This document shows, piece by piece, positions 3,757 to 15,988 of a stretch of DNA of 23,579 bases (position 1 is its first letter; each line of letters starts with the position of its first letter). Location of the stretch: positions 1 through 23,579 of IMG/VR virus record IMGVR_UViG_3300008113_000385. One strand, given 5' to 3'. This DNA comes from a virus. The position numbers and the translations under genes were made by a program. The notes under the pieces were generated by a model, which worked only from the letters and a program-made list of their open reading frames with translations, made no database searches and was not told the origin of the DNA.

Positions 3757-4755
3757 ATGGCATCATTAGCAGAAATTCGTGCCCGTATCGCGGCACAAGA
3801 AAACAAGTCAAGTGGTTCAAGCAACCAGCAATCTGACAATTCAATCTACCCCCACTGGAATATGGATGAAGGTACAATCGCTACCATTCGCTTTCTACCA
3901 GATGCGAATTCATCTAACACATTCTTCTGGGTAGAACGTCAAATCATCAAACTACCATTCAATGGTGTTAAGGGTGATCCAAACGTAAAACAAATTCAAG
4001 TACAAGTACCTTGCGTAGAAATGTATGGTGATAACTGTCCAATTCTAGCAGAGGTTCGCCCTTGGTATAAAGACGAGAGTTTGAAAGAAATGGCAAACAA
4101 GTATTGGAAGAAACGTAGTTATCTATTCCAAGGCTTTGTTCGTCAAAATCCAATTGGTGATGACAAGCAACCTGCGAACCCGATTCGTAGATTTGTTATT
4201 AGCCCACAAATCTTTACAATCATCAAATCAAGTTTGATGGATCCTGAAATGGAAGAATTGCCAACTGACTATCTACGTGGTTTGGACTTCAATATTAAGA
4301 AGACCAGCAAAGGTGGTTATGCAGATTACTCAACCAGTAACTGGGCACGTAAAGAATCTGCACTTACAGAAGCAGAGCAGGCAGCTATTGATGGTCATGG
4401 TTTGTTTAATTTAGCAGACTTTTTACCTAAGAAGCCCAGCGAAGCAGAATTGCGTGTAATCAAAGAAATGTTTGAAGCAAGCGTAGATGGTCGCCCATAC
4501 GACAACGAACGTTGGGGTAATTACTATCGTCCATACGGACTTGAAGCACCTGCAGGAGCAACCGCGGCAGCAACACAAGCGACTACTGGAACTAGCGCAC
4601 CCGCAACAGCACCCGTAGCAGAGTCAGCTCCATGGTCGGATGACGAGCCTGCATCAACATCAGCGCCGGTCGAAATTCCTAAAGCTACTCCTAGTAGTGA
4701 CAAAGCACAAGATATTCTAGCAATGATTCGTGCTAGACAGTCTAAGGCAGCTTAA
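3757..4755 (+). CDS. 32: Single-stranded DNA-binding protein gp32
   Basis: A 332-residue gp32-type protein (T4 gp32 is about 301) that coats ssDNA and coordinates UvsX/UvsY recombination and the replisome. The N-terminal basic helix LAEIRARIAAQ (4-14) corresponds to the cooperativity domain. The core includes TIATIRFLPD, FFWVERQIIKLP, SYLFQGFVRQNP and the gp32-like segment RPYDNERWGNYYRPYG (246-261). Only two Cys are near the usual zinc site (C86 and C94), so the T4 His/Cys zinc set looks incomplete. The tail (about 262-310) is a low-complexity Ala/Thr/Pro linker with an acidic patch (WSDDEP). It ends in DILAMIRARQSKAA, which resembles the N-terminal helix. AAGGA precedes the ATG by about 8 nt. 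Confidence 0.9.
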   Translation: MASLAEIRARIAAQENKSSGSSNQQSDNSIYPHWNMDEGTIATIRFLPDANSSNTFFWVERQIIKLPFNGVKGDPNVKQIQVQVPCVEMYGDNCPILAEVRPWYKDESLKEMANKYWKKRSYLFQGFVRQNPIGDDKQPANPIRRFVISPQIFTIIKSSLMDPEMEELPTDYLRGLDFNIKKTSKGGYADYSTSNWARKESALTEAEQAAIDGHGLFNLADFLPKKPSEAELRVIKEMFEASVDGRPYDNERWGNYYRPYGLEAPAGATAAATQATTGTSAPATAPVAESAPWSDDEPASTSAPVEIPKATPSSDKAQDILAMIRARQSKAA

Positions 4756-5049: not shown

Positions 5050-6132
5050 ATGGAGAAGAAATTGGGAAAACCATTTGACGTAAGTAAATTTAGAAAAGAA
5101 ATAACAAAAAGCATTGAAGGATTAAGCATTGGATTTAATGACCCTACTGACTGGATTAACACAGGAAATTACGCACTTAACTATCTTATTAGTGGTGATT
5201 TTAATAAAGGTGTACCATTGGGCAAAGTTACTGTATTTGCTGGAGAGTCAGGTTCTGGGAAAAGTTTTATTTGTTCTGGTAACTTGGTACGTCATGCTCA
5301 ACAACAGGGCATCTTTGTGGTGCTCATTGATTCGGAAAATGCGTTAGATGAGAAATGGTTGCACGCCTTGGGCGTTGATACCTCAGAAAGTAAATTATTG
5401 AAACTTAATATGGCTATGATTGATGATGTAGCCAAGACAATCAGTAAATTTGTGACTGATTATAAAACACTTCCAGTAGATGACAGACCTAAAGTATTGT
5501 TTGTCATTGATAGCTTGGGAATGTTATTGACTCCGACTGATGTGAATCAGTTTGAAGCAGGTGATATGAAGGGTGACATGGGTCGTAAGCCTAAAGCATT
5601 GGCTGCACTTGTTCGTAACTCTGTAAACATGTTCGGTAGTCTGAACATTGGTATGGTTGCAACTAATCATACATACGCAAGTCAGGATATGTTTGATCCA
5701 GATGATAAAGTATCAGGTGGTCAGGGCTTTGTGTATGCTAGTAGTATTCTTGTTGCTATGAAAAAACTCAAACTTAAAGAGGATGAGGATGGTAACAAAG
5801 TTTCAGAAGTAAGAGGTATCCGTGCCGCATGTAAGATTATGAAAACACGATATTCTAAACCTTTTGAGACACTACAGATTAAGATTCCATATGAAACAGG
5901 CATGAATCCATACAGTGGTTTGCTTGATTTGTTTGAGAAGAACGAACTTCTTACTAAAGAAGGTAATCGTTTATCATATACTACCGATGACGGAGAAATC
6001 TTGAAGATGTTTCGTAAAGGTTGGGAAAGCAACGAGAATGGTTGTTTAGATAAAGTTATGTCTGAGTATTCAAATAGATTAGTCAAAGGCATAAGTAGTG
6101 ATGAAACTTTGGAAGGAGACACTACAGAATGA
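5050..6132 (+). CDS. uvsX: UvsX, RecA-like recombinase
   Basis: A 360-residue strand-exchange recombinase (T4 UvsX is about 390) that forms filaments on gp32-coated ssDNA with UvsY. Walker A is GESGSGKS (65-72). Walker B is VLFVIDSLG (149-157), with the key Asp at 155. ATNHTYASQDMFDPDDKVSGGQG is the UvsX/RecA-type segment after the L1 region. The acidic C-terminus (SSDETLEGDTTE) is typical. The first in-frame ATG is 5050, because TGA at 5047-5049 closes the frame upstream. An out-of-frame ATG at 5046 opens an 11-codon ORF across the start. The stop overlaps the next ATG (ATGA), implying coupling. Confidence 0.93.
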   Translation: MEKKLGKPFDVSKFRKEITKSIEGLSIGFNDPTDWINTGNYALNYLISGDFNKGVPLGKVTVFAGESGSGKSFICSGNLVRHAQQQGIFVVLIDSENALDEKWLHALGVDTSESKLLKLNMAMIDDVAKTISKFVTDYKTLPVDDRPKVLFVIDSLGMLLTPTDVNQFEAGDMKGDMGRKPKALAALVRNSVNMFGSLNIGMVATNHTYASQDMFDPDDKVSGGQGFVYASSILVAMKKLKLKEDEDGNKVSEVRGIRAACKIMKTRYSKPFETLQIKIPYETGMNPYSGLLDLFEKNELLTKEGNRLSYTTDDGEILKMFRKGWESNENGCLDKVMSEYSNRLVKGISSDETLEGDTTE

Positions 6133-6383: not shown

Positions 6384-6839
6384 ATGAATTGGTACACTAG
6401 GATCACAAGCGACCTTAGTGTATTACCGGATTTCATAAGTCATTATGATATAGAAATAATATCTGCAAAGCAAGACGTTAAAATTCATGGCAATGTTGAA
6501 AAGAACATTGCTGCCTTGCCCGGTACCACTGAACATCGTTTCAATCAACTACAGGAAATTGAGGCAGTACTTAACTTTCTCAACATTCAACTACGGAAAA
6601 TTCGCCGAAAACATTTTCAAAAATATTTAGAAGCGTATAATAGAGCATTGACCAGTCGTGATGCTGAAAAGTATGTTGATGGTGAAGAAGAGGTTATCGA
6701 CTTTGAAACACTTATTAATGAAGTTGCACTACTACGTAATCGTTGGTTGGGTATACTTAAAGGTCTTGAAGCAAAACAATGGCAAATGGGTCATATCGTC
6801 AGGTTAAGAACTGCTGGTATGGAAGATATTACACTATGA
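6384..6839 (+). CDS. uvsY: UvsY-like recombination mediator
   Basis: A 151-residue protein placed like UvsY (T4 UvsY is 137 aa), which loads UvsX onto gp32-covered ssDNA. The pattern matches the family: a basic N-terminal helical part (QLRKIRRKHFQKYLEAYNRAL, about 70-90), then the block SRDAEKYVDGEEEVIDFETLINEVALLRNRW. The C-terminal helix WLGILKGLEAKQWQMGHIVRLR parallels T4 YWGILLDFCSGALDAIKSRGFAIKHI. It starts 4 nt after the previous stop and ends in an ATGA overlap with the next gene. Confidence rests on the aligned C-terminal pattern and its position next to uvsX. Confidence 0.75.
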   Translation: MNWYTRITSDLSVLPDFISHYDIEIISAKQDVKIHGNVEKNIAALPGTTEHRFNQLQEIEAVLNFLNIQLRKIRRKHFQKYLEAYNRALTSRDAEKYVDGEEEVIDFETLINEVALLRNRWLGILKGLEAKQWQMGHIVRLRTAGMEDITL

Positions 6840-7829: not shown

Positions 7830-7859
7830 ACTTGTATTGATTGATTGAAAGGGGTTTCT

Positions 7860-8909
7860 ATGTCATCAATGATTCGTGTTAAGTTTGGTGAGTATCGCAA
7901 CATTCCAGTTGTGAACAGTACATTCACACTTGTTAAGGGTTTCCAAACAGGTGCAAAAGGTGGTTATGTGACAGTGAAAAACGAGGGGCACTTTCCCGAC
8001 TTTGCTATTGAAAATGTCAAAGTTAAGGTTAGTGGTATTGAAGATATTGAATTTGTAAATGGAGATCCAACAGTGAATAACGCAATTGAATTTAAAACTA
8101 AGGAAGCTAAAGTAGTTGCACCTAAAGAATCTGACGAGGATGCAATGAATCGCATCGCTACCCGTTTTCAGGTACTTGATGAAATGTCAAAGGCAGCTAT
8201 CAATGGTGACATTCGTGCTATGATTGTGTCAGGTCCCCCTGGAGTTGGTAAATCATACGGTGTTGAAACACAATTGGAAAAAGCAAGTATGTTTGACAAA
8301 CTTGCAGGCAAACGTGTGCGTTTTGAAATTGTCAAAGGTGCTATGACTGCACTTGGCTTGTATGCACAATTGTACAAGTTTTCGGATCGTAAAAATGTGT
8401 TAGTGTTTGATGATTGTGATTCTGTATTCGCCGATGACTTGAGTTTGAACATTCTGAAGGCAGCATTGGATTCAGGTAAGCGTAGACGCATTTGCTGGAA
8501 CAGTGATTCTAGTTTGTTGCGCCGTGAAGGTATCCCTGATAGTTTTGACTTTAACGGTACTGCTATTTTCATTACAAACTTGAAGTTTGAAAATGTGAAA
8601 AGCAAAAAGTTGCAGGATCACTTGGAAGCACTGCAAAGTCGTTGTCACTTTCTTGACCTGACTATCAACAATGAACGTGACAAAATGTTGCGTATCAAGC
8701 AGGTACATCGTGATGCTGACGGTGGTTTGTTCAAAGACTATGACTTTGAAAACAATGAGGGTGAAATGATTATTGACTTTATGGTTGAGAATCAATCTAA
8801 ACTCCGTGAGTTGAGTATGCGTATGTGTCTGAAAATTGCAGACCTAGTAAAGATTAGTCCTAGCAATTGGCGTGCTTTGACTGTTAGTACTTGTATGAAA
8901 TCTGCTTAA
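7860..8909 (+). CDS. AAA+ ATPase of unknown role
   Basis: 349 residues from ATG 7860, chosen because AAAGGGG lies about 5 nt upstream; an in-frame TTG at 7845 overlaps this site and is unlikely. The N-terminal ~95 residues form a separate beta-rich region. The ATPase core has Walker A GPPGVGKS (125-132), Walker B VLVFDDCD (180-187), a sensor-1-like strand IFITN (236-240) and a candidate arginine finger near R261 (LQSRCHFLDL). The core resembles AAA+ proteins seen in other large phages and is not the gp44 clamp loader. It is a single-gene unit with a doubled strong promoter and its own terminator, which suggests high early expression. Substrate and partner are unknown. Confidence 0.85.
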   Translation: MSSMIRVKFGEYRNIPVVNSTFTLVKGFQTGAKGGYVTVKNEGHFPDFAIENVKVKVSGIEDIEFVNGDPTVNNAIEFKTKEAKVVAPKESDEDAMNRIATRFQVLDEMSKAAINGDIRAMIVSGPPGVGKSYGVETQLEKASMFDKLAGKRVRFEIVKGAMTALGLYAQLYKFSDRKNVLVFDDCDSVFADDLSLNILKAALDSGKRRRICWNSDSSLLRREGIPDSFDFNGTAIFITNLKFENVKSKKLQDHLEALQSRCHFLDLTINNERDKMLRIKQVHRDADGGLFKDYDFENNEGEMIIDFMVENQSKLRELSMRMCLKIADLVKISPSNWRALTVSTCMKSA

Positions 8910-8930: not shown

Positions 8931-8958
8931 AAAGAGGGACTTACATGTCCCTCTTTTT
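8931..8958 (+). terminator. Intrinsic terminator after the AAA+ ATPase gene
   Basis: AAAGAGGGAC (8931-8940) pairs with GTCCCTCTTT (8947-8956) over a 6-nt loop. It is followed directly by T residues (T-run 8954-8958). This is a standard Rho-independent terminator that closes the AAA+ transcription unit. Confidence 0.85.
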
Positions 8959-8968
8959 ACCACTATGC

Positions 8969-8998
8969 TTGCATTCGCATGGTAATAAGTAATATAAT
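8969..8998 (+). promoter_or_regulatory. Candidate sigma-70 promoter abutting the start of the HARP-like gene
   Basis: A perfect TATAAT (8993-8998) is preceded 18 nt upstream by a poor -35 (TTGCAT, 8969-8974). It lies in the gap after the terminator, where a new promoter is needed. The ATG at 9005 is only 6 nt after the -10, so the transcript would be nearly leaderless. No Shine-Dalgarno is visible. Confidence 0.5.
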
Positions 8999-9004
8999 AG
9001 CAAA

Positions 9005-10048
9005 ATGACAAAAGTGAAACCTAAGACTAAAGAGCAGGTAATCTATTTTTTGATATCTAATATCAGTTTAGGTACCTACGACAAACGCTTCCTAAGTAAC
9101 TTAGAATCAATGAACGTTGTTGCAAAAAAGCCGCTTACAACTAATCAGGCTACACTTTTTGAAAAAATCATTTTGCGTTATGCTAGACAACTACAAAAAT
9201 TAGAAATATCATCTGAATCATTAATCAATCTACCATGGACACTAGAGCCGATTCCTAGTCTACCTCAATTTACTGAGGCACATTTAATTTTAGACAACAG
9301 TACATTAGTATTGAGCAGTCCTTATAAGAAAGACTTTATCAATGATTTACGCAAGTCGGACGTAAACGGCAAATGGAATAGAGAAGAAAGGTTGTGGACT
9401 ATTCCGGCTAGCCCCTTTTCATTGAAACTTTTGAAGAAGGATTTAGAAAAACATTATGGTAAAGTTAACTATTGTGATGAAATTAAAAAGTTGTTAAGTG
9501 ACGTTGAAGTTTATAAAAATTATAAGTATTGGGACCCTACGTTCACTTATATTAATGGTAACTTTTATTTAATTGCTACATCAGAAAATTTGATTAGTCA
9601 AACATCTAACATACCATTTGAAACAGAACTACACACTATTGCACACTTGATTAGGTATGGAATTACTATTGATGATAGTGTGATAGAAAAATTTAAAGAA
9701 AAATTTACAGAAGAAGAAATACAATTTGCATTGTCAGCAGAGAATAGCATAGAATACAATGACACTTCTATTGTAGAAAAGTTAGTCAAACTGAAAACAG
9801 ATTGTGTCTTTATAAAATCTTTTACTACATTCAGTAAAGATTATACATCAAGTATTAGAGAATCATTAAGAACACACAACATCAAATACAAAGAGTTTTC
9901 ATTTTCAGAAGATTTAAATCCTAGTCTGCGTAAATGCAAATACCCTGTGATAATATTTGTAGGAGGCTCTATGCGAGGATCTAGTTTACCTTCAACTGTG
10001 GCCAAGATTATAAATTGCGTAAACAGTAACCCTGTAAATATAAAATGA
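9005..10048 (+). CDS. HARP-domain-like protein coupled to UvsW
   Basis: A 347-residue protein. The N-terminal part (about 10-65) has the pattern FLSNLESM...KPLTTNQATLFEKIILRY, a helical module I have seen near ssDNA or helicase proteins. Residues about 91-155 (AHLILDNSTLVLSSPYKKDF, then KWNREERLWTIPAS and LKKDLEKHYG) resemble the HARP domain of SMARCAL1, in which a strand-helix unit is followed by W...R.W.(F/I)P and a second helix. The C-terminal ~80 residues contain CVFIKSFTTFSK and YPVIIFVGGS, possibly a RecA-like remnant. The stop overlaps the uvsW ATG (10045), so translation is coupled. In SMARCAL1 the HARP domain enables annealing and fork reversal with an SF2 motor. A similar accessory role for UvsW is inference. 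Confidence 0.6.
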   Translation: MTKVKPKTKEQVIYFLISNISLGTYDKRFLSNLESMNVVAKKPLTTNQATLFEKIILRYARQLQKLEISSESLINLPWTLEPIPSLPQFTEAHLILDNSTLVLSSPYKKDFINDLRKSDVNGKWNREERLWTIPASPFSLKLLKKDLEKHYGKVNYCDEIKKLLSDVEVYKNYKYWDPTFTYINGNFYLIATSENLISQTSNIPFETELHTIAHLIRYGITIDDSVIEKFKEKFTEEEIQFALSAENSIEYNDTSIVEKLVKLKTDCVFIKSFTTFSKDYTSSIRESLRTHNIKYKEFSFSEDLNPSLRKCKYPVIIFVGGSMRGSSLPSTVAKIINCVNSNPVNIK

Positions 10049-11502
10049 AAACATGTAAAATAATTGTTAAGGATGAAGTCAATGTAAAGATTGAGGGTCT
10101 TGAATTAGCTGAACGTAAAGCATTGATGAAGAAATTTGAATACGAGAAGCCGGGTGCGAGATATCTACCAAGTGTCCGACTAGGTCGCTGGAACGGCAAA
10201 ATCAGTTTCTTTAGTCTAGGTGGTAGCAGTTATGTTAATCTATTGCCGGAAATATTGCCACTGATTGACATGGCAGGATATGACATTGAGTTGGAAGATT
10301 TACGTGAATACAGTACTACTTTTAACTTTAACCAGATTGCAGAGGATACATTTAGTCATTGTAGTTGGCCAAAAGGTCATCCTAAACAAGGAGAACCTGT
10401 AGTATTTAGGGACTATCAACTTACAGTAGTAAATGAATTCTTAGCTAATCCACAATCAATACAAGAAGTAGCAACGGGTGCAGGTAAAACGCTAATGACT
10501 GCGGCACTAAGTTATAGTATTGAAAACTATGGTCGTAGTATTGTTATTGTACCTAACAAGAGTTTAGTTGTGCAAACAGAAGCTGACTATATCAATTTAG
10601 GATTAGATGTTGGTGTATACTTTGGTGACAGGAAAGAGTTTGGTAAGACACATACAATTTGCACTTGGCAAAGTCTTGGTAACATGTTAAAGAATACCAA
10701 GTCAGGTGAAGCAGAAGTATCTATCGGAGAATTTATTGAGGGTGTAGTTTGTGTCATGGTTGATGAGGTACACATGGCTAAGGCTGATGTACTTAAAGAA
10801 TTATTGACAGGTGTAATGAGTCATATTCCGATTCGTTGGGGATTGACTGGAACGATACCAAAAGCAGTGTACGAAGCACAAGCATTGTATGTGAGCATAG
10901 GCAACTTAACTAACAAACTTAGTGCAAGTGAATTGCAAGAAAAGGGTGTGCTTGCACAATGTCATGTAAATATAGTACAACTAAAAGATGAAGTAGAATT
11001 TACAAATTATCAAAGCGAACTAAAACATTTGCTTGAGGATACAAATAGACTAGATGCTATTGCCGAATTGATTTTAAAAATTAAAGATAGTGGCAATACA
11101 TTGATACTAGTTGATAGAGTTAATGCAGGTAAAGAATTGATTAGTAGATTACCTGACAGCGTATTTGTATCCGGTGATACTAAGTTAACAGAAAGAAAAG
11201 AGGAATACGATGAAATTGCCACAAGCACAAACAAAATCATTGTCGCAACCTACGGGGTGGCGGCGGTTGGTATCAATATACCACGAATATTCAACCTTGT
11301 TCTTATTGAACCTGGCAAGAGTTTTGTTAGAGTCATCCAAAGCATTGGTAGAGGTATTAGAAAAGCGGAGGACAAAGATTTTGTCCAAATCTGGGATATC
11401 ACAAGCTCCTGTAAATTTGCCAAAAGACATTTGACCCAACGTAAGACTTTCTATAAGGAAGCAAACTACCCATTTGACATGGAAAAGTTGACATACAGAT
11501 GA
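10045..11502 (+). CDS. uvsW: UvsW, SF2 DNA/RNA helicase
   Basis: A 485-residue SF2 helicase (T4 UvsW is about 503) that regresses stalled forks, branch-migrates recombination intermediates and removes R-loops. The N-terminal substrate-recognition domain (1-115) includes RYLPSVRLGRWNGKISFFS. Q-like motif FRDYQ (121-125); motif I ATGAGKT (143-149); motif II DEVH (240-243); motif III LTGT (267-270); motif V region ATYGVAAVGINIP (401-413); motif VI QSIGRGIRK (432-440). The start overlaps the preceding stop (ATGA). The -35 of the next promoter lies in its last codons. Confidence 0.93.
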   Translation: MKTCKIIVKDEVNVKIEGLELAERKALMKKFEYEKPGARYLPSVRLGRWNGKISFFSLGGSSYVNLLPEILPLIDMAGYDIELEDLREYSTTFNFNQIAEDTFSHCSWPKGHPKQGEPVVFRDYQLTVVNEFLANPQSIQEVATGAGKTLMTAALSYSIENYGRSIVIVPNKSLVVQTEADYINLGLDVGVYFGDRKEFGKTHTICTWQSLGNMLKNTKSGEAEVSIGEFIEGVVCVMVDEVHMAKADVLKELLTGVMSHIPIRWGLTGTIPKAVYEAQALYVSIGNLTNKLSASELQEKGVLAQCHVNIVQLKDEVEFTNYQSELKHLLEDTNRLDAIAELILKIKDSGNTLILVDRVNAGKELISRLPDSVFVSGDTKLTERKEEYDEIATSTNKIIVATYGVAAVGINIPRIFNLVLIEPGKSFVRVIQSIGRGIRKAEDKDFVQIWDITSSCKFAKRHLTQRKTFYKEANYPFDMEKLTYR

Positions 11503-11516
11503 GAAAGTGATATAAT
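11488..11516 (+). promoter_or_regulatory. Perfect sigma-70 promoter directly abutting the next start codon
   Basis: TTGACA (11488-11493), 17-nt spacer, TATAAT (11511-11516). The ATG of the next gene is at 11523, 6 nt after the -10, so transcription would start at or within a base or two of the ATG. It heads the long overlapping operon up to about 17146. The message should be leaderless unless a downstream start is used. Confidence 0.8.
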
Positions 11517-11522
11517 AAACGC

Positions 11523-12023
11523 ATGAGAATTTTAACATTAGACAATACATATTACAACTTAGAAACTTTACCAGAGGAAGTTGATGATTTGCGTTTTGCA
11601 ATACTAGATAATAGTAACCCACAAAACGTTGACTATCATTATATTCCTTTGATATTCCTAGAAAGTTTTAATAGCCCGGCACTAGTACTACGTATAGGTG
11701 ATAAACAAATTAAGATGCCGGTTGATTGGCAGATATTGATTGGTGAGCCTGAGATGGGAGACTTAGAAACATTGCCGTTAACAAGTATCAATGATAGAGG
11801 CTTTAAAGCATTTGAGTTTAATCCATTGAGTGCATTTAGACCTAGCTTTCCTGACATTGAAATCATAGATATTTACCATGATGTAACTTGGTACGCACCT
11901 CGATTAAAGAATGGGCAGTTTCTATGTGTACCCATTGATGATGAACCCAAACCTAGATGTATATTTTTTGTAAAAGAAATCAGTCGTAATTGTGAGATAG
12001 TAGATTATCAACAGTCTTGGTAA
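11523..12023 (+). CDS. Conserved T4-like phage protein of unknown function
   Basis: A 166-residue protein. Its blocks DYHYIPLIFLESFNSPALVL, MPVDWQILIGEPEMGDLETL, PLTSINDRGFKAFEFNPLSA and RPSFPDIEI...VTWYAPRLKNGQFLCVP recall a conserved hypothetical of marine and freshwater T4-like myoviruses, from memory. It is mainly beta, with no membrane segment or catalytic signature that I recognise. It sits just after uvsW and is the first gene of the run driven by the promoter at 11488. No Shine-Dalgarno precedes the ATG, which agrees with a leaderless start. Confidence 0.8.
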   Translation: MRILTLDNTYYNLETLPEEVDDLRFAILDNSNPQNVDYHYIPLIFLESFNSPALVLRIGDKQIKMPVDWQILIGEPEMGDLETLPLTSINDRGFKAFEFNPLSAFRPSFPDIEIIDIYHDVTWYAPRLKNGQFLCVPIDDEPKPRCIFFVKEISRNCEIVDYQQSW

Positions 12024-12615: not shown

Positions 12616-13285
12616 CTATAGTTGTGAATTCTGTCACAGAAAATTCATACGAGAAAAAACTTTACTAACTCATATATGTGAGACAAAACATCGTTGGTTA
12701 GAAAAAGATAAACAAGGCAATCGTATAGGCTTTCAGAGTTTTTTACAATTTTATACAAAACATACCACATCAAAGAAAGTAAAAACTTATGAAGATTTTA
12801 TACGAAGTGCATACTATATTGCATTCATAAAGTTTGGAAGTTATTGTGTAAATGCTAATGTTATCAATGTAAGCAGATTTGTTGATTGGTTATTGCGTGA
12901 TGGAGTTAAACTTGACAGCTGGGCTAGTGATATATCCTATACAAAATTTTTAATAGAATACATTCGTGTGGAAAATGCATTTGATGCAATACATCGTAGT
13001 GTAGAATACTGTATTGAATTGAGCGGGAAAGAAAATATACTATCACATGATATATTACGTTATGGTAATAGTAATAGAATATGTCATGCTATAACAACAG
13101 GCAAAATAAGTCCATGGATGCTATACTGTAGTGAAAGTGGTACAAAATTTTTAGACAACTTAGCTAGTGACCAAGTCAAATTGGTTATTGATTATATAAA
13201 CCCAGAACAGTGGGCATTGAAGTTTCATCGTGAACCAGAACTTACTAAACAAATCAGAGACACCCTTAAACAAGCAGGGTACTAA
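12590..13285 (+). CDS. C2H2 zinc-finger phage protein of unknown function
   Basis: A 231-residue protein with an N-terminal zinc-finger pattern: C12-x2-C15...H28...H34 in YSCEFCHRKFIREKTLLTH, with an extra Cys at 30. After it come KHRWLEKDKQGNRIGFQSFL and a helical domain (YEDFIRSAYYIAFIKFGSYC, then SRFVDWLL and FDAIHRSVEYCIELS). Similar zinc-finger hypotheticals occur in T4-like cyanophages as I recall. A DNA- or RNA-binding role is likely from the finger, but the target is unknown. It overlaps the gp62-like gene by 26 nt and the next small ORF by 56 nt, so translational coupling is expected. Confidence 0.75.
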   Translation: MKKITETVDYSCEFCHRKFIREKTLLTHICETKHRWLEKDKQGNRIGFQSFLQFYTKHTTSKKVKTYEDFIRSAYYIAFIKFGSYCVNANVINVSRFVDWLLRDGVKLDSWASDISYTKFLIEYIRVENAFDAIHRSVEYCIELSGKENILSHDILRYGNSNRICHAITTGKISPWMLYCSESGTKFLDNLASDQVKLVIDYINPEQWALKFHREPELTKQIRDTLKQAGY

Positions 13286-13466
13286 AGTCCGTATACCCTG
13301 GAAAAAGGGTGATTCTATAAACCGATGGGATGAAACCTGTATATGGGCAGTGGAACAGTTTGGATTACCTGGAGATAGATATACTAGTCATCCTACTATA
13401 GACTACATGGATTTCTACTTCAATGATGAGCGTGACGCATTGCATTTTGAATTAAGATGGGGATAA
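13230..13466 (+). CDS. Small LRW-family protein 1
   Basis: 78 residues from GTG 13230, the only standard start in the frame; TGAAG lies 7 nt upstream. It overlaps the zinc-finger gene by 56 nt, so the first ~17 residues may not be natural. It is the first member of the paralogous set: RWDETCIWAVEQFG helix, GDRY loop, then DFYFNDERDALHFELRWG at the C-terminus. The set shares a W(C/A) helix, a variable loop, an F-x-F strand, an acidic turn and a terminal F-x-L-(R/K)-W helix. The function is unknown. Confidence 0.65.
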   Translation: MNQNLLNKSETPLNKQGTKVRIPWKKGDSINRWDETCIWAVEQFGLPGDRYTSHPTIDYMDFYFNDERDALHFELRWG

Positions 13467-13467
13467 T

Positions 13468-13590
13468 ATGATAATTGAAATTTTTTTATATGGCTTTATA
13501 TCAGCGTTTGGTTGGTGGACAGCACAACACTACGTGATTGAACCGCACTTCCCTCCTCCTATTGAAAAGAAAGAAGATAAAAAACAATGA
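13468..13590 (+). CDS. 40-residue single-pass membrane protein
   Basis: Begins MIIEIFLYGFISAFGWW; residues about 2-18 form one hydrophobic helix. It is followed by TAQHYVIEPHFPPPIEK and a Lys-rich end (KKEDKKQ). The positive C-terminal tail suggests a cytoplasmic C-terminus. It starts 2 nt after the previous stop and overlaps the next ATG (ATGA at 13587-13590). Comparable tiny proteins with FGWW...HYVIEP..PPP occur in other T4-like phages as I recall. Its role is unknown; size and topology would allow an inner-membrane anchor or lysis-timing accessory, which is speculation. Confidence 0.7.
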   Translation: MIIEIFLYGFISAFGWWTAQHYVIEPHFPPPIEKKEDKKQ

Positions 13591-14234
13591 AACCCACAAT
13601 AGCACTATTTGTTGCTGATCCCAAGTGTTCAGTGCAAAGTGCCAACGGGATGATTAGTTCATTGGACAAATATTATACTTTCAAATTATTTTCAAAAAAC
13701 AGACTGGAACATAATTTCTTTGACGATGTTGATATGATAGCAGTCCCTGGCGGATTGGGAGATGCGGCTTCATTTGAAACATTGTTTAAAAACAACGGAG
13801 ATAGAGTACGTGAATTTATTCACAATGATGGAAGATATCTTGGAATATGTATGGGTGCATATTGGGCAGGCAAGCATTATCTCAATGTGTTGCACGATGT
13901 TGATGCAGTTCAATACTTGAAAAGACCCGGAACTGATACACGTAGACCTCATGCAAAAAACATGCCTGTCAATTGGGACGGGATGTCAACTAAAATGTTT
14001 TGGTATGATGGTTGTGCATTAGTAGGTGATGATACTAAATTTGAAATAGTAGCTACTTACGAAGCGAATAATGATAGTATGGCCATCTATCAGAATCGCA
14101 TAGGGTTAATTGGCTGTCACCCAGAGAGTCAACAATTTTGGTATGATGGGTATTCATATCTAAAGGGAAAATATCATGGGGGTTGGCATCATAAGTTGTT
14201 GTTAGAATTTACTAATCAATTAATGAGAAGATAA
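13587..14234 (+). CDS. Class I glutamine-amidotransferase-like protein (BPL_N type)
   Basis: A 215-residue protein. It has the GATase1/DJ-1-like fold signature: an early strand IALFVAD, VDMIAVPGGLGDA (48-60), nucleophile elbow YLGICMGAYWAG (84-95, Cys88) and catalytic His-Glu in GCHPES (176-181: H178, E180). The pattern best resembles the biotin-protein-ligase N-terminal (BPL_N) group rather than CarA, GuaA or PurQ. It could release ammonia from glutamine for a nucleotide or DNA modification partner, or act as a hydrolase. No synthetase partner is seen in the window. It overlaps the membrane-protein stop (ATGA) and the next start by 1 nt (TAATG). It splits the small-protein array. Confidence 0.75.
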   Translation: MKPTIALFVADPKCSVQSANGMISSLDKYYTFKLFSKNRLEHNFFDDVDMIAVPGGLGDAASFETLFKNNGDRVREFIHNDGRYLGICMGAYWAGKHYLNVLHDVDAVQYLKRPGTDTRRPHAKNMPVNWDGMSTKMFWYDGCALVGDDTKFEIVATYEANNDSMAIYQNRIGLIGCHPESQQFWYDGYSYLKGKYHGGWHHKLLLEFTNQLMRR

Positions 14235-14491
14235 TGACACTAGAAGATGAAATAGCTGAGAAGGTAGCTAGAGAAATGTACAATGAGATTGACTTTGAGG
14301 TTATGAAAGAACTGTTAGTTGAATCCGGCTGGTATGTTATTGAGTTACTAACATTAGGAAGTAGAGAACGGTCAATTGATATACAAGATTGGGTAACAAA
14401 AAATTGTAAGAGGGGTTTTATAGCCAGAGGAAGAACATTTGTGTTTAAGTGTAAACAAGAAGCTGAATGGTTTAGTCTGAGGTGGGTATGA
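14234..14491 (+). CDS. Small LRW-family protein 2
   Basis: 85 residues, with a longer acidic N-terminal helix (TLEDEIAEKVAREMYNEIDF) than its relatives. The family core follows: SIDIQDWVTKNCKRG, then TFVFKCKQEAEWFSLRWV. The start overlaps the preceding stop by 1 nt (TAATG). The stop overlaps the next start (ATGA). Function unknown; family membership rests on the shared C-terminus. Confidence 0.7.
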   Translation: MTLEDEIAEKVAREMYNEIDFEVMKELLVESGWYVIELLTLGSRERSIDIQDWVTKNCKRGFIARGRTFVFKCKQEAEWFSLRWV

Positions 14492-14721
14492 ATAGCAAAC
14501 AAAGACGTAGTATTACCCGTAAATTAAAATATCAAATTACAATACTCATCCAAGGAGAGTCATATTATTTTGAGTTTGATGAAAAAATTGTTAATTGTCT
14601 TTTGTGGTGTAGGAAAAAAGCCAAAGGAGTTTATAGTATTGACAATCAGTATGCTCAAAAAGTTATTTTTAGTTTTGAAAAAGAAAGAGATGCAATAATC
14701 TTTGCATTGAAATATCAATGA
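14488..14721 (+). CDS. Small LRW-family protein 3
   Basis: 77 residues from ATG 14488, chosen over in-frame GTG 14482 because GAGG lies just upstream and the ATGA overlap matches the local style. It has a basic N-terminus (NSKQRRSITRKLKYQ), then EKIVNCLLWCRKKAKG. The family end is VIFSFEKERDAIIFALKYQ, where the terminal Trp is replaced by Tyr. Function unknown. Confidence 0.65.
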   Translation: MNSKQRRSITRKLKYQITILIQGESYYFEFDEKIVNCLLWCRKKAKGVYSIDNQYAQKVIFSFEKERDAIIFALKYQ

Positions 14722-15023
14722 TTAAGAAACAACAAATGACTAATAGATTGTATGGTAGTAACGGTGGATGGGCCGCAATACGTAGTGTCAATTATGCCGG
14801 CATAGGACAGGCGTATGACATGCCCTATCATCAGATTGATCCCATAATATCAGCTAAAGAATGGAACAAAATGATTGCTTGGTGTGTTAACACATTTGGA
14901 CCCAGCGGCACGCCGGGCGCACCCGGTGTATGGACGCCCGGCGATAGATGGTATGTTAACAATGCTAAGTTTTGGTTTAGAGACAAAAAAGATTGCGAAT
15001 GGTTTTTGTTGAGATGGCAATAA
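14718..15023 (+). CDS. Small LRW-family protein 4
   Basis: 101 residues, the longest member. Its N-terminal extension is Gly/Tyr-rich (LYGSNGGWAAIRSVNYAGIG). The core has EWNKMIAWCVNTFG, a long Gly/Pro loop (PSGTPGAPGVWTPGDRWY) and AKFWFRDKKDCEWFLLRWQ. It starts in an ATGA overlap. Its last ten bases, ATGGCAATAA, also contain the start codon of the next gene. An internal ATG at 14736 (MTNRLYG) is a possible alternative start. Function unknown. Confidence 0.7.
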   Translation: MIKKQQMTNRLYGSNGGWAAIRSVNYAGIGQAYDMPYHQIDPIISAKEWNKMIAWCVNTFGPSGTPGAPGVWTPGDRWYVNNAKFWFRDKKDCEWFLLRWQ

Positions 15024-15238
15024 CTATTAATCTTACAGGAAGTCTAACTGCAAGACAGGAGAAATGGCTAATAAAGAACGTAGGTCCTAGAATGTTCTAC
15101 ATACATAATAGTATTGGTGGGCAGGGATGGATTGCTAAACGTCAGAGTTATTCTAGGTATAGTGAACCAAGTACTTGGACTCTAACATTAGAAGATGACA
15201 AATTAGCTACTTTTTTTGTAATAAAGTTTTCATCGTGA
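15014..15238 (+). CDS. Small LRW-family protein 5 (divergent)
   Basis: 74 residues from ATG 15014, which is embedded in the Arg-Trp codons of the preceding gene; upstream in-frame TTG 14993 and ATG 14999 lie deeper in that gene. It contains LTARQEKWLIKNVG and ends TWTLTLEDDKLATFFVIKFSS, a divergent form of the family end with Phe for Trp. It begins MAIT, like protein 7. Function unknown. Confidence 0.6.
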   Translation: MAITINLTGSLTARQEKWLIKNVGPRMFYIHNSIGGQGWIAKRQSYSRYSEPSTWTLTLEDDKLATFFVIKFSS

Positions 15239-15447
15239 TTAATCTTAGATTAGAAATATCTGCGTCAAAAGCTATGGAATTAGTCAATCAATTACGTACT
15301 GCTGGTTGTGTGCAGGGAGTAGATTTTGATTTTAGATATTACCCTAGTATACAAGATAGATTTAATGGACCAGCAAAACCTAGCTTTGTACTTTTTCATT
15401 TTTACAAAGAATCATTAGCAACTTATTATGGATTAAAATGGCAATAA
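15235..15447 (+). CDS. Small LRW-family protein 6
   Basis: 70 residues from GTG 15235, overlapping the previous stop as GTGA. It has ASKAMELVNQLRTAG in the helix position, then DFDFRYYPSIQDRFNG and FVLFHFYKESLATYYGLKWQ. The terminal ten bases, ATGGCAATAA, again contain the next start. No strong Shine-Dalgarno is present, so expression probably depends on coupling. Function unknown. Confidence 0.6.
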   Translation: MINLRLEISASKAMELVNQLRTAGCVQGVDFDFRYYPSIQDRFNGPAKPSFVLFHFYKESLATYYGLKWQ

Positions 15448-15722
15448 CAAAACCTATAGGTACATTTGTACCATTACCAATCAGAGAAGATGAAATTCAA
15501 TATGAAATCATTGACCATAATTATATGAGTCGTGGTGATAAAATACAATATGTTTATGATTGTAAAAAGAAAAAAGAGAATCCAACAGATATTGTAAAGT
15601 GGTGTAGACGAAATTTCGGTGAAAGAGGTGTCGGTTGGGACTTTCTTTTTATCTCAGGAAATGTTACAATCATACTATGGGATGACAAATTCAAAACCAT
15701 GTACGAATTGTGGAAAACTTAA
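15438..15722 (+). CDS. Small LRW-family protein 7
   Basis: 94 residues, starting MAITKPIGTFVPLP inside the last codons of the previous gene. It contains NPTDIVKWCRRNFGERG and ends VTIILWDDKFKTMYELWKT, a shifted version of the family end. The N-terminal ~45 residues are beta-rich (IQYEIIDHNY, KIQYVYDCKKKK). Function unknown. Confidence 0.65.
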   Translation: MAITKPIGTFVPLPIREDEIQYEIIDHNYMSRGDKIQYVYDCKKKKENPTDIVKWCRRNFGERGVGWDFLFISGNVTIILWDDKFKTMYELWKT

Positions 15723-15724
15723 TT

Positions 15725-15988
15725 ATGATAGACAATACAGAAACAAGATCCTTTACTCATAGAACAGAACATTACTATGGAAGTAAAAGAAACATCCATA
15801 CTATATCTTGGAAGGGAAGAGGCGAAGTTGACTCGGAAGAAATTCGTAACTGGTGCTTAACTATTCTAGGTAAATCGGGATATCAAGAAGAAATTGAAAG
15901 AACTCGTTGGGTAGATAATATTGAACAAAGCGAAATAATGTTATGTAATGATGAAGATTTAACATTGTTTTTATTAAGATGGGATTGA
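15725..15988 (+). CDS. Small LRW-family protein 8
   Basis: 87 residues from ATG 15725, 2 nt after the previous stop; an in-frame TTG at 15710 would add five residues. It contains DSEEIRNWCLTILGKSG and ends SEIMLCNDEDLTLFLLRWD. It is the last member of the array; the exonuclease gene begins 1 nt after its stop. Function unknown. Confidence 0.65.
   Translation: MIDNTETRSFTHRTEHYYGSKRNIHTISWKGRGEVDSEEIRNWCLTILGKSGYQEEIERTRWVDNIEQSEIMLCNDEDLTLFLLRWD

Follow-up and report, generated by a model that had tools for sequence, protein, structure and literature searches.

The DNA analysed here, referred to throughout as the window, comprises 23,579 nucleotides of the virus record IMGVR_UViG_3300008113_000385 in IMG/VR. 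It contains a recombination and replication cluster in the order gp32-UvsX-UvsY-AAA-HARP-like-UvsW, and all genes and features of this cluster lie on the plus strand. The genes encode a gp32-like single-strand DNA-binding protein (3757-4755; Pfam and PHROG), a UvsX-like recombinase (5050-6132; PHROG), a UvsY-like mediator (6384-6839; PHROG), an AAA ATPase (7845-8909; phrog_1250), a HARP-like protein of 347 aa (9005-10048; an ORF call backed by purifying selection) and a UvsW-family SF2 helicase of 485 aa (10045-11502; Pfam and PHROG). Outside the cluster, a series of small overlapping ORFs (70-100 aa, 13230-15988), most with a similar end motif (..F.LRW or ..Y.LKW), has the look of a tandem paralogue family, and the ORF at 13587-14234 resembles by eye a glutamine-amidotransferase-like or biotin-protein-ligase N-terminal protein (GICMGAYWAG motif).

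The helicase was matched by a PHROG DNA helicase family (E = 1.5e-71) and by Pfam ResIII (E = 5e-15). Its own N-terminal domain (residues 9-82, 10069-10290), a domain reported as HARP-like in T4 UvsW (PMC4666394), was matched by Pfam UvsW_N at E = 0.007, under the Pfam cut-off (17.3 vs. 25.3 bits). The protein therefore combines the SF2 motor and the UvsW-type N-terminal domain that define a UvsW. Its closest isolate relatives are encoded by jumbo phages: Sinorhizobium phage Phosso (56% identity), the PA5oct group (50%), Atu_ph07 (50%) and 121Q-like phages (49%). As described preliminarily, the 347-residue ORF overlaps the uvsW start, with 4 nt shared in an ATGA stop/start (10045-10048). Exact 4-nt overlaps were counted at 5 of the 25 neighbouring gene junctions; the overlap is ordinary for this window, and it was rejected as proof of a complex.

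Between the AAA and HARP-like genes, a hairpin (AAGAGGGAC-TTACAT-GTCCCTCTT, 8932-8958) followed by a T-run is likely the terminator of the AAA gene (folding energy −16.7 kcal/mol, z = −4.2), although a simple terminator scan did not pick it. It is followed by a promoter-like sequence, TTGCAT-18-TATAAT (8969-8998), the −10 box of which ends 6 nt before the ATG at a conserved offset. Among 54 non-identical homologous starts of the HARP-like gene, a −10-like box was present at offset 6 in 39 and at offset 5 in 3, and some starts with the box at offset 0 or 2 carry another ATG, in frame and correctly spaced. A hexamer at −12 to −7 would place the transcription start on the A of the ATG, and from this sequence conservation the mRNA of the HARP-like gene is predicted to be leaderless. 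Downstream of uvsW, the next gene (11523) shows TTGACA-17-TATAAT-N6-ATG, conserved in 36 of 48 cases, and leaderless mRNA is the predicted conserved mode for both genes (sites 8993-9007 and 11511-11525), whereas about 25 nt of ordinary leader precede the AAA gene. Deinococcus-Thermus provides examples of leaderless genes whose −10 box adjoins the ORF (PMC12340547). Judged from these signals, the putative terminator and promoter set the HARP-like gene and uvsW apart as a private two-gene unit. No Shine-Dalgarno match was found upstream of uvsW in the window, and translation of uvsW therefore probably depends on the HARP-like gene, but such matches were weak throughout the window. In lineages L174, L176 and L178, which lack the HARP-like gene, the −10 box lies 6 nt before the ATG of uvsW itself. 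With its fixed spacing of box and ATG, this phage replication operon is well suited to a clean test of leaderless expression.

Searched as a single sequence, the HARP-like protein of the window gave no usable match in Pfam, PHROGs, NCBIfam, PDB sequences or isolate phages. Relatives were collected from IMG/VR, at first two and then 80, and 50 non-redundant members were aligned. Pfam HARP (PF07443) and another weakly matching family were the joint most frequent matches; HARP was matched by 6 of these 50 members at E < 1 (best E = 0.011), and wherever positions were seen the matches lay in register at residues ~101-148. The gathering cut-off of 25 bits was not reached, with no match for the window protein and 15.7 bits for the best member seen. 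A HARP profile was made from three sequences only, one from mouse SMARCAL1 (4O66) and two from the repeats in the HARP protein of Bacillus phage vB_BcoS-136, a protein that matches Pfam HARP at E = 1e-11. In hhalign, the 50-member family profile aligned to it over residues 97-148 with a score of 30.8 (shuffled maximum 22.2, 0/400), and a broader 103-member family profile scored 32.8 (shuffled maximum 22.3, 0/400), the null being column-shuffled HARP profiles (2 x 400 trials). The HARP-like segment that had been placed at about residues 91-155 from the window alone is thus upheld at the level of the family profile, though below the Pfam cut-off, and the similarity is beyond chance. Because that cut-off is not reached, the name HARP-like is used rather than HARP. 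DUF5710 matched three family members (best E = 1.2e-4), inside the same segment as the HARP match where this was seen, and the segment could equally be named HARP/DUF5710-like. The HARP profile gave no match to UvsW despite the HARP-like N-terminus that the literature assigns to it, which indicates that sequence profiles are weak for this type of fold. A PDB profile search with the family returned chance matches only, no relatives were confirmed among 84,980 prokaryote genomes, and isolates held only distant relatives. A literature search found no paper naming both 'HARP domain' and bacteriophage.

The AlphaFold2 model of the protein (50-row alignment) had a mean pLDDT of 90.4 and a pTM of 0.60, so that domain placement is uncertain. 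The HARP-like domain was delimited by the model and the profile alignment at residues 91-156 (9275-9472), in the order beta-beta-alpha-beta-beta-alpha-beta. Strands were predicted at residues 92-97, 100-104, 123-125, 130-134 and 154-156 and helices at 109-117 and 137-150; these five strands and two helices within residues 92-156 equal in number, packing aside, the elements of published HARP, a five-stranded sheet against two helices (PMC4666394). The segment contains a conserved tryptophan, W131, and a second, family-specific one, W124. In a whole-protein structure search of viral models, the HepA-related (HARP) protein of vB_BcoS-136 was matched at E = 6e-4 and a 73-residue SMARCAL1-like model was matched over its full length (target TM 0.74); SF2/SNF2 helicases were also returned, and uncharacterised phage proteins and Atu_ph07 gp083 ranked above the HepA-related protein. 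Mouse SMARCAL1 HARP (4O66) was not among the matches listed for the whole model, which were taken up by the C-terminal domain.

Three further parts were delimited. Residues 1-79 (9005-9241) form an N-terminal helical domain with the signature LGTYDkrF...TTNQ, recognised from invariant alignment columns and model helices. A middle module with a conserved W176-x-P178 (residues 157-249, 9473-9751) was defined from the alignment and the model, and a small C-terminal alpha/beta, Rossmann-like domain (residues 250-347, 9752-10045) from these and the structure search. No Walker motif is conserved in residues 250-347 across the 50 sequences, and no motor motifs or motor matches were found within the 347 aa; a protein of its own, UvsW/XPB-like, carries the motor. 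The presence of an alpha/beta domain behind the HARP-like domain would fit a decayed SF2/SNF2 helicase that keeps the HARP-like domain and a partial RecA-like lobe and acts as a competitor or regulator. The domain order is that of Corynebacterium phage P1201 gp75, the N-terminus of which precedes an SNF2 motor, and residues 201-305 align weakly with Phosso gp419 (P = 0.03), by eye a degenerate RecA lobe. The C-terminal domain, however, had no profile match to UvsW or the P1201 helicase, and its structure matches were generic Rossmann-like folds with Z of about 6-8.5, the best being periplasmic binding proteins (8.5), with XPD at 6.5. Such a pseudo-helicase is considered unlikely. The C-terminal domain, in which the preliminary description saw a possible degenerate RecA-like lobe (about the last 80 residues), may or may not descend from one.

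Conservation of the pair was assessed from both of its genes. Starting from the HARP-like protein, uvsW lay directly downstream in all 78 IMG/VR relatives whose flank was long enough; most of these pairs share the 4-nt overlap of the window, and the others overlap by at most 14 nt or leave a gap of at most 3 nt. As this test is circular for distant cases, a reverse survey was added that started from UvsW (80 loci, 70-94% UvsW identity). The HARP-like gene was present in 53 of these loci, adjacent in 49 and separated by one gene in 4; it was absent from 19, and 8 had too short a flank. The pair is therefore conserved in related phages. Where the HARP-like gene is missing, the AAA gene adjoins uvsW on its upstream side. 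On a 99-row UvsW tree (a quick tree without bootstrap), presence or absence changed 3 times, and absence in L116, L118, L126 and L127, nested deep among carriers, looks like loss. No homologue was found elsewhere in four HARP-less records of 345, 344, 264 and 171 kb by a profile search that recovered the protein in seven positive records. The relatives are mostly metagenomic fragments, many of them near-identical, and absence was judged at the uvsW junction, plus one contig each for a few records.

In four loci (L149:1405-2988, L160:1381-2973, L164:1381-2973 and L165), the gene between the HARP-like gene and uvsW is a TonB-dependent-receptor-like gene of ~1.6 kb, encoding ~530 residues that seem to include a signal peptide (in L149, Pfam Plug matches at E = 5e-10), a striking content for a phage replication cluster. 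In another locus (L168:852-1709), the AAA and HARP-like genes are separated by one for a protein that by eye is of the SPFH/prohibitin membrane type. Among L033, L045 and L049, the HARP-like proteins are 88-89% identical throughout, but UvsW identity reaches 98% for one pair against 87-88% for the remaining ones. This suggests recombination between the two genes, so that uvsW may be exchanged independently of its partner.

The HARP-like protein is under purifying selection, with a median dN/dS of 0.10 over 43 pairs against 0.037 for UvsW, many of the comparisons being between near-duplicates. Family identity is 30-49%, and this fast divergence, together with dispensability, is what might be expected of a host-takeover or anti-defence protein placed in the operon by chance. 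Strong purifying selection, few changes of presence and absence and a fixed place by uvsW are atypical for host-interaction genes, and this explanation is held to be the least probable of those considered. A second possibility, that the protein is a DNA junction or single-strand DNA binder serving UvsX, UvsY, gp32 or the AAA ATPase and adjoins uvsW through clustering of recombination genes, agrees with the gene order of the cluster, with the inserted genes that can break adjacency and with the distant homologue Phosso gp418, two genes from uvsW. The putative terminator would nevertheless cut off the AAA gene and leave the HARP-like gene a transcription unit in common with uvsW. An accessory of UvsW is favoured over this possibility, which remains a serious if less likely candidate.

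The preliminary description proposed a split SMARCAL1-type annealing helicase, in which UvsW would depend on the HARP-like subunit for annealing or fork recognition. The HARP-like segment, the conserved pair and the common transcription unit all agree with it; the need of UvsW for an external HARP domain does not stand. T4 UvsW is reported to have an N-terminal HARP domain of its own (PMC4666394) and is by itself a robust rewinding enzyme that regresses forks (PMC3778716), and related UvsW proteins occur without the partner at the 19 loci above. It is accordingly unlikely that the HARP-like protein gives UvsW its annealing ability, and the split enzyme as a whole is improbable. Addition of a second HARP-like module to UvsW is possible. 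According to a review, SMARCAL1 has two HARP domains, and annealing requires only the second of them (PMC3409536); an additional module may therefore be non-essential, in line with its loss from some phages.

The reading favoured here, tentatively, is that of a motor-less, junction-binding accessory of UvsW in recombination-dependent replication. The HARP-like domain would bind branched or single/double-strand junction DNA, and the N-terminal helical and C-terminal alpha/beta domains would contact other proteins, UvsW being the likeliest. UvsW would then work with a HARP-like module of its own and a second in trans, comparable to the two that SMARCAL1 carries within a single chain, and the accessory may tune its substrate choice or processivity rather than create the annealing activity. 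This reading is drawn from the HARP profile score above all shuffles, the fold of the model, the conserved adjacency, the few changes of presence and absence, the isolated unit and purifying selection; the HARP-less lineages that keep the −10/ATG arrangement before uvsW and the distant Phosso homologue near uvsW are also consistent with it. Counted against it are the persistence of UvsW without the partner in several lineages, the slow evolution of UvsW beside a partner that diverges to 30% identity, the frequency of ATGA overlaps, the four receptor-like insertions and the apparent exchange of uvsW. A more elaborate version, a two-protein, two-HARP fork remodeller made from the module of UvsW and the one in trans and encoded by a bicistronic unit of their own, in which the leaderless first cistron would control translation of the helicase, is rather doubtful.

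The two-gene unit shared with uvsW in many large, water-borne, uncultured phages points to a helper of UvsW, one that is dispensable in some relatives. A protein family that is conserved in uncultured phages, and so far undescribed, thereby gains a testable role. Should the protein be a partner of UvsW, the lineages with and without the second module would serve as a natural experiment on the reason for multiple HARP domains in fork remodellers such as SMARCAL1.

Compared with known systems, the protein resembles SMARCAL1 HARP (PF07443) and the HepA-related protein of vB_BcoS-136 in the profile of residues 97-148, in W131 and in the five strands and two helices, and differs from them in scoring below the cut-off (15.7 of 25 bits), in a chain without a motor and in the extra W124. 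The N-terminal domain of T4 UvsW shares the HARP-like fold by literature and serves the same helicase, but is part of UvsW and has no sequence-profile match to the window protein. T4 UvsW.1 is a small protein whose gene lies beside uvsW, and a proposed DNA-binding partner (PMC7824862); it is trihelical, whereas the protein described here has 347 aa and a four-part alpha/beta architecture, and is not assigned to UvsW.1. Agrobacterium phage Atu_ph07 gp083 has a similar predicted fold (E = 3.9e-6) and a similar place near uvsW, but no significant sequence-profile match to the family. In Phosso (gp418 and gp419, L004:2747-4880) and Atu_ph07 (gp083 and gp082, L006:2927-4457), both of them cultured jumbo phages, the next gene after the HARP-like one has a product that, judged by eye, resembles a degenerate SF2 RecA lobe; this view of gp419 and gp082 as degenerate helicases found no Pfam or PHROG support and was set aside. 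Phosso gp418, the nearest known homologue among isolates, is shorter (212 aa), lacks the C-terminal domain and lies upstream of uvsW with gp419 in between, but over residues 22-196 it is distantly homologous (E = 1.3e-4, and 1.7e-9 with the broad profile), with the N-terminal and HARP-like domains in the same recombination-gene cluster.
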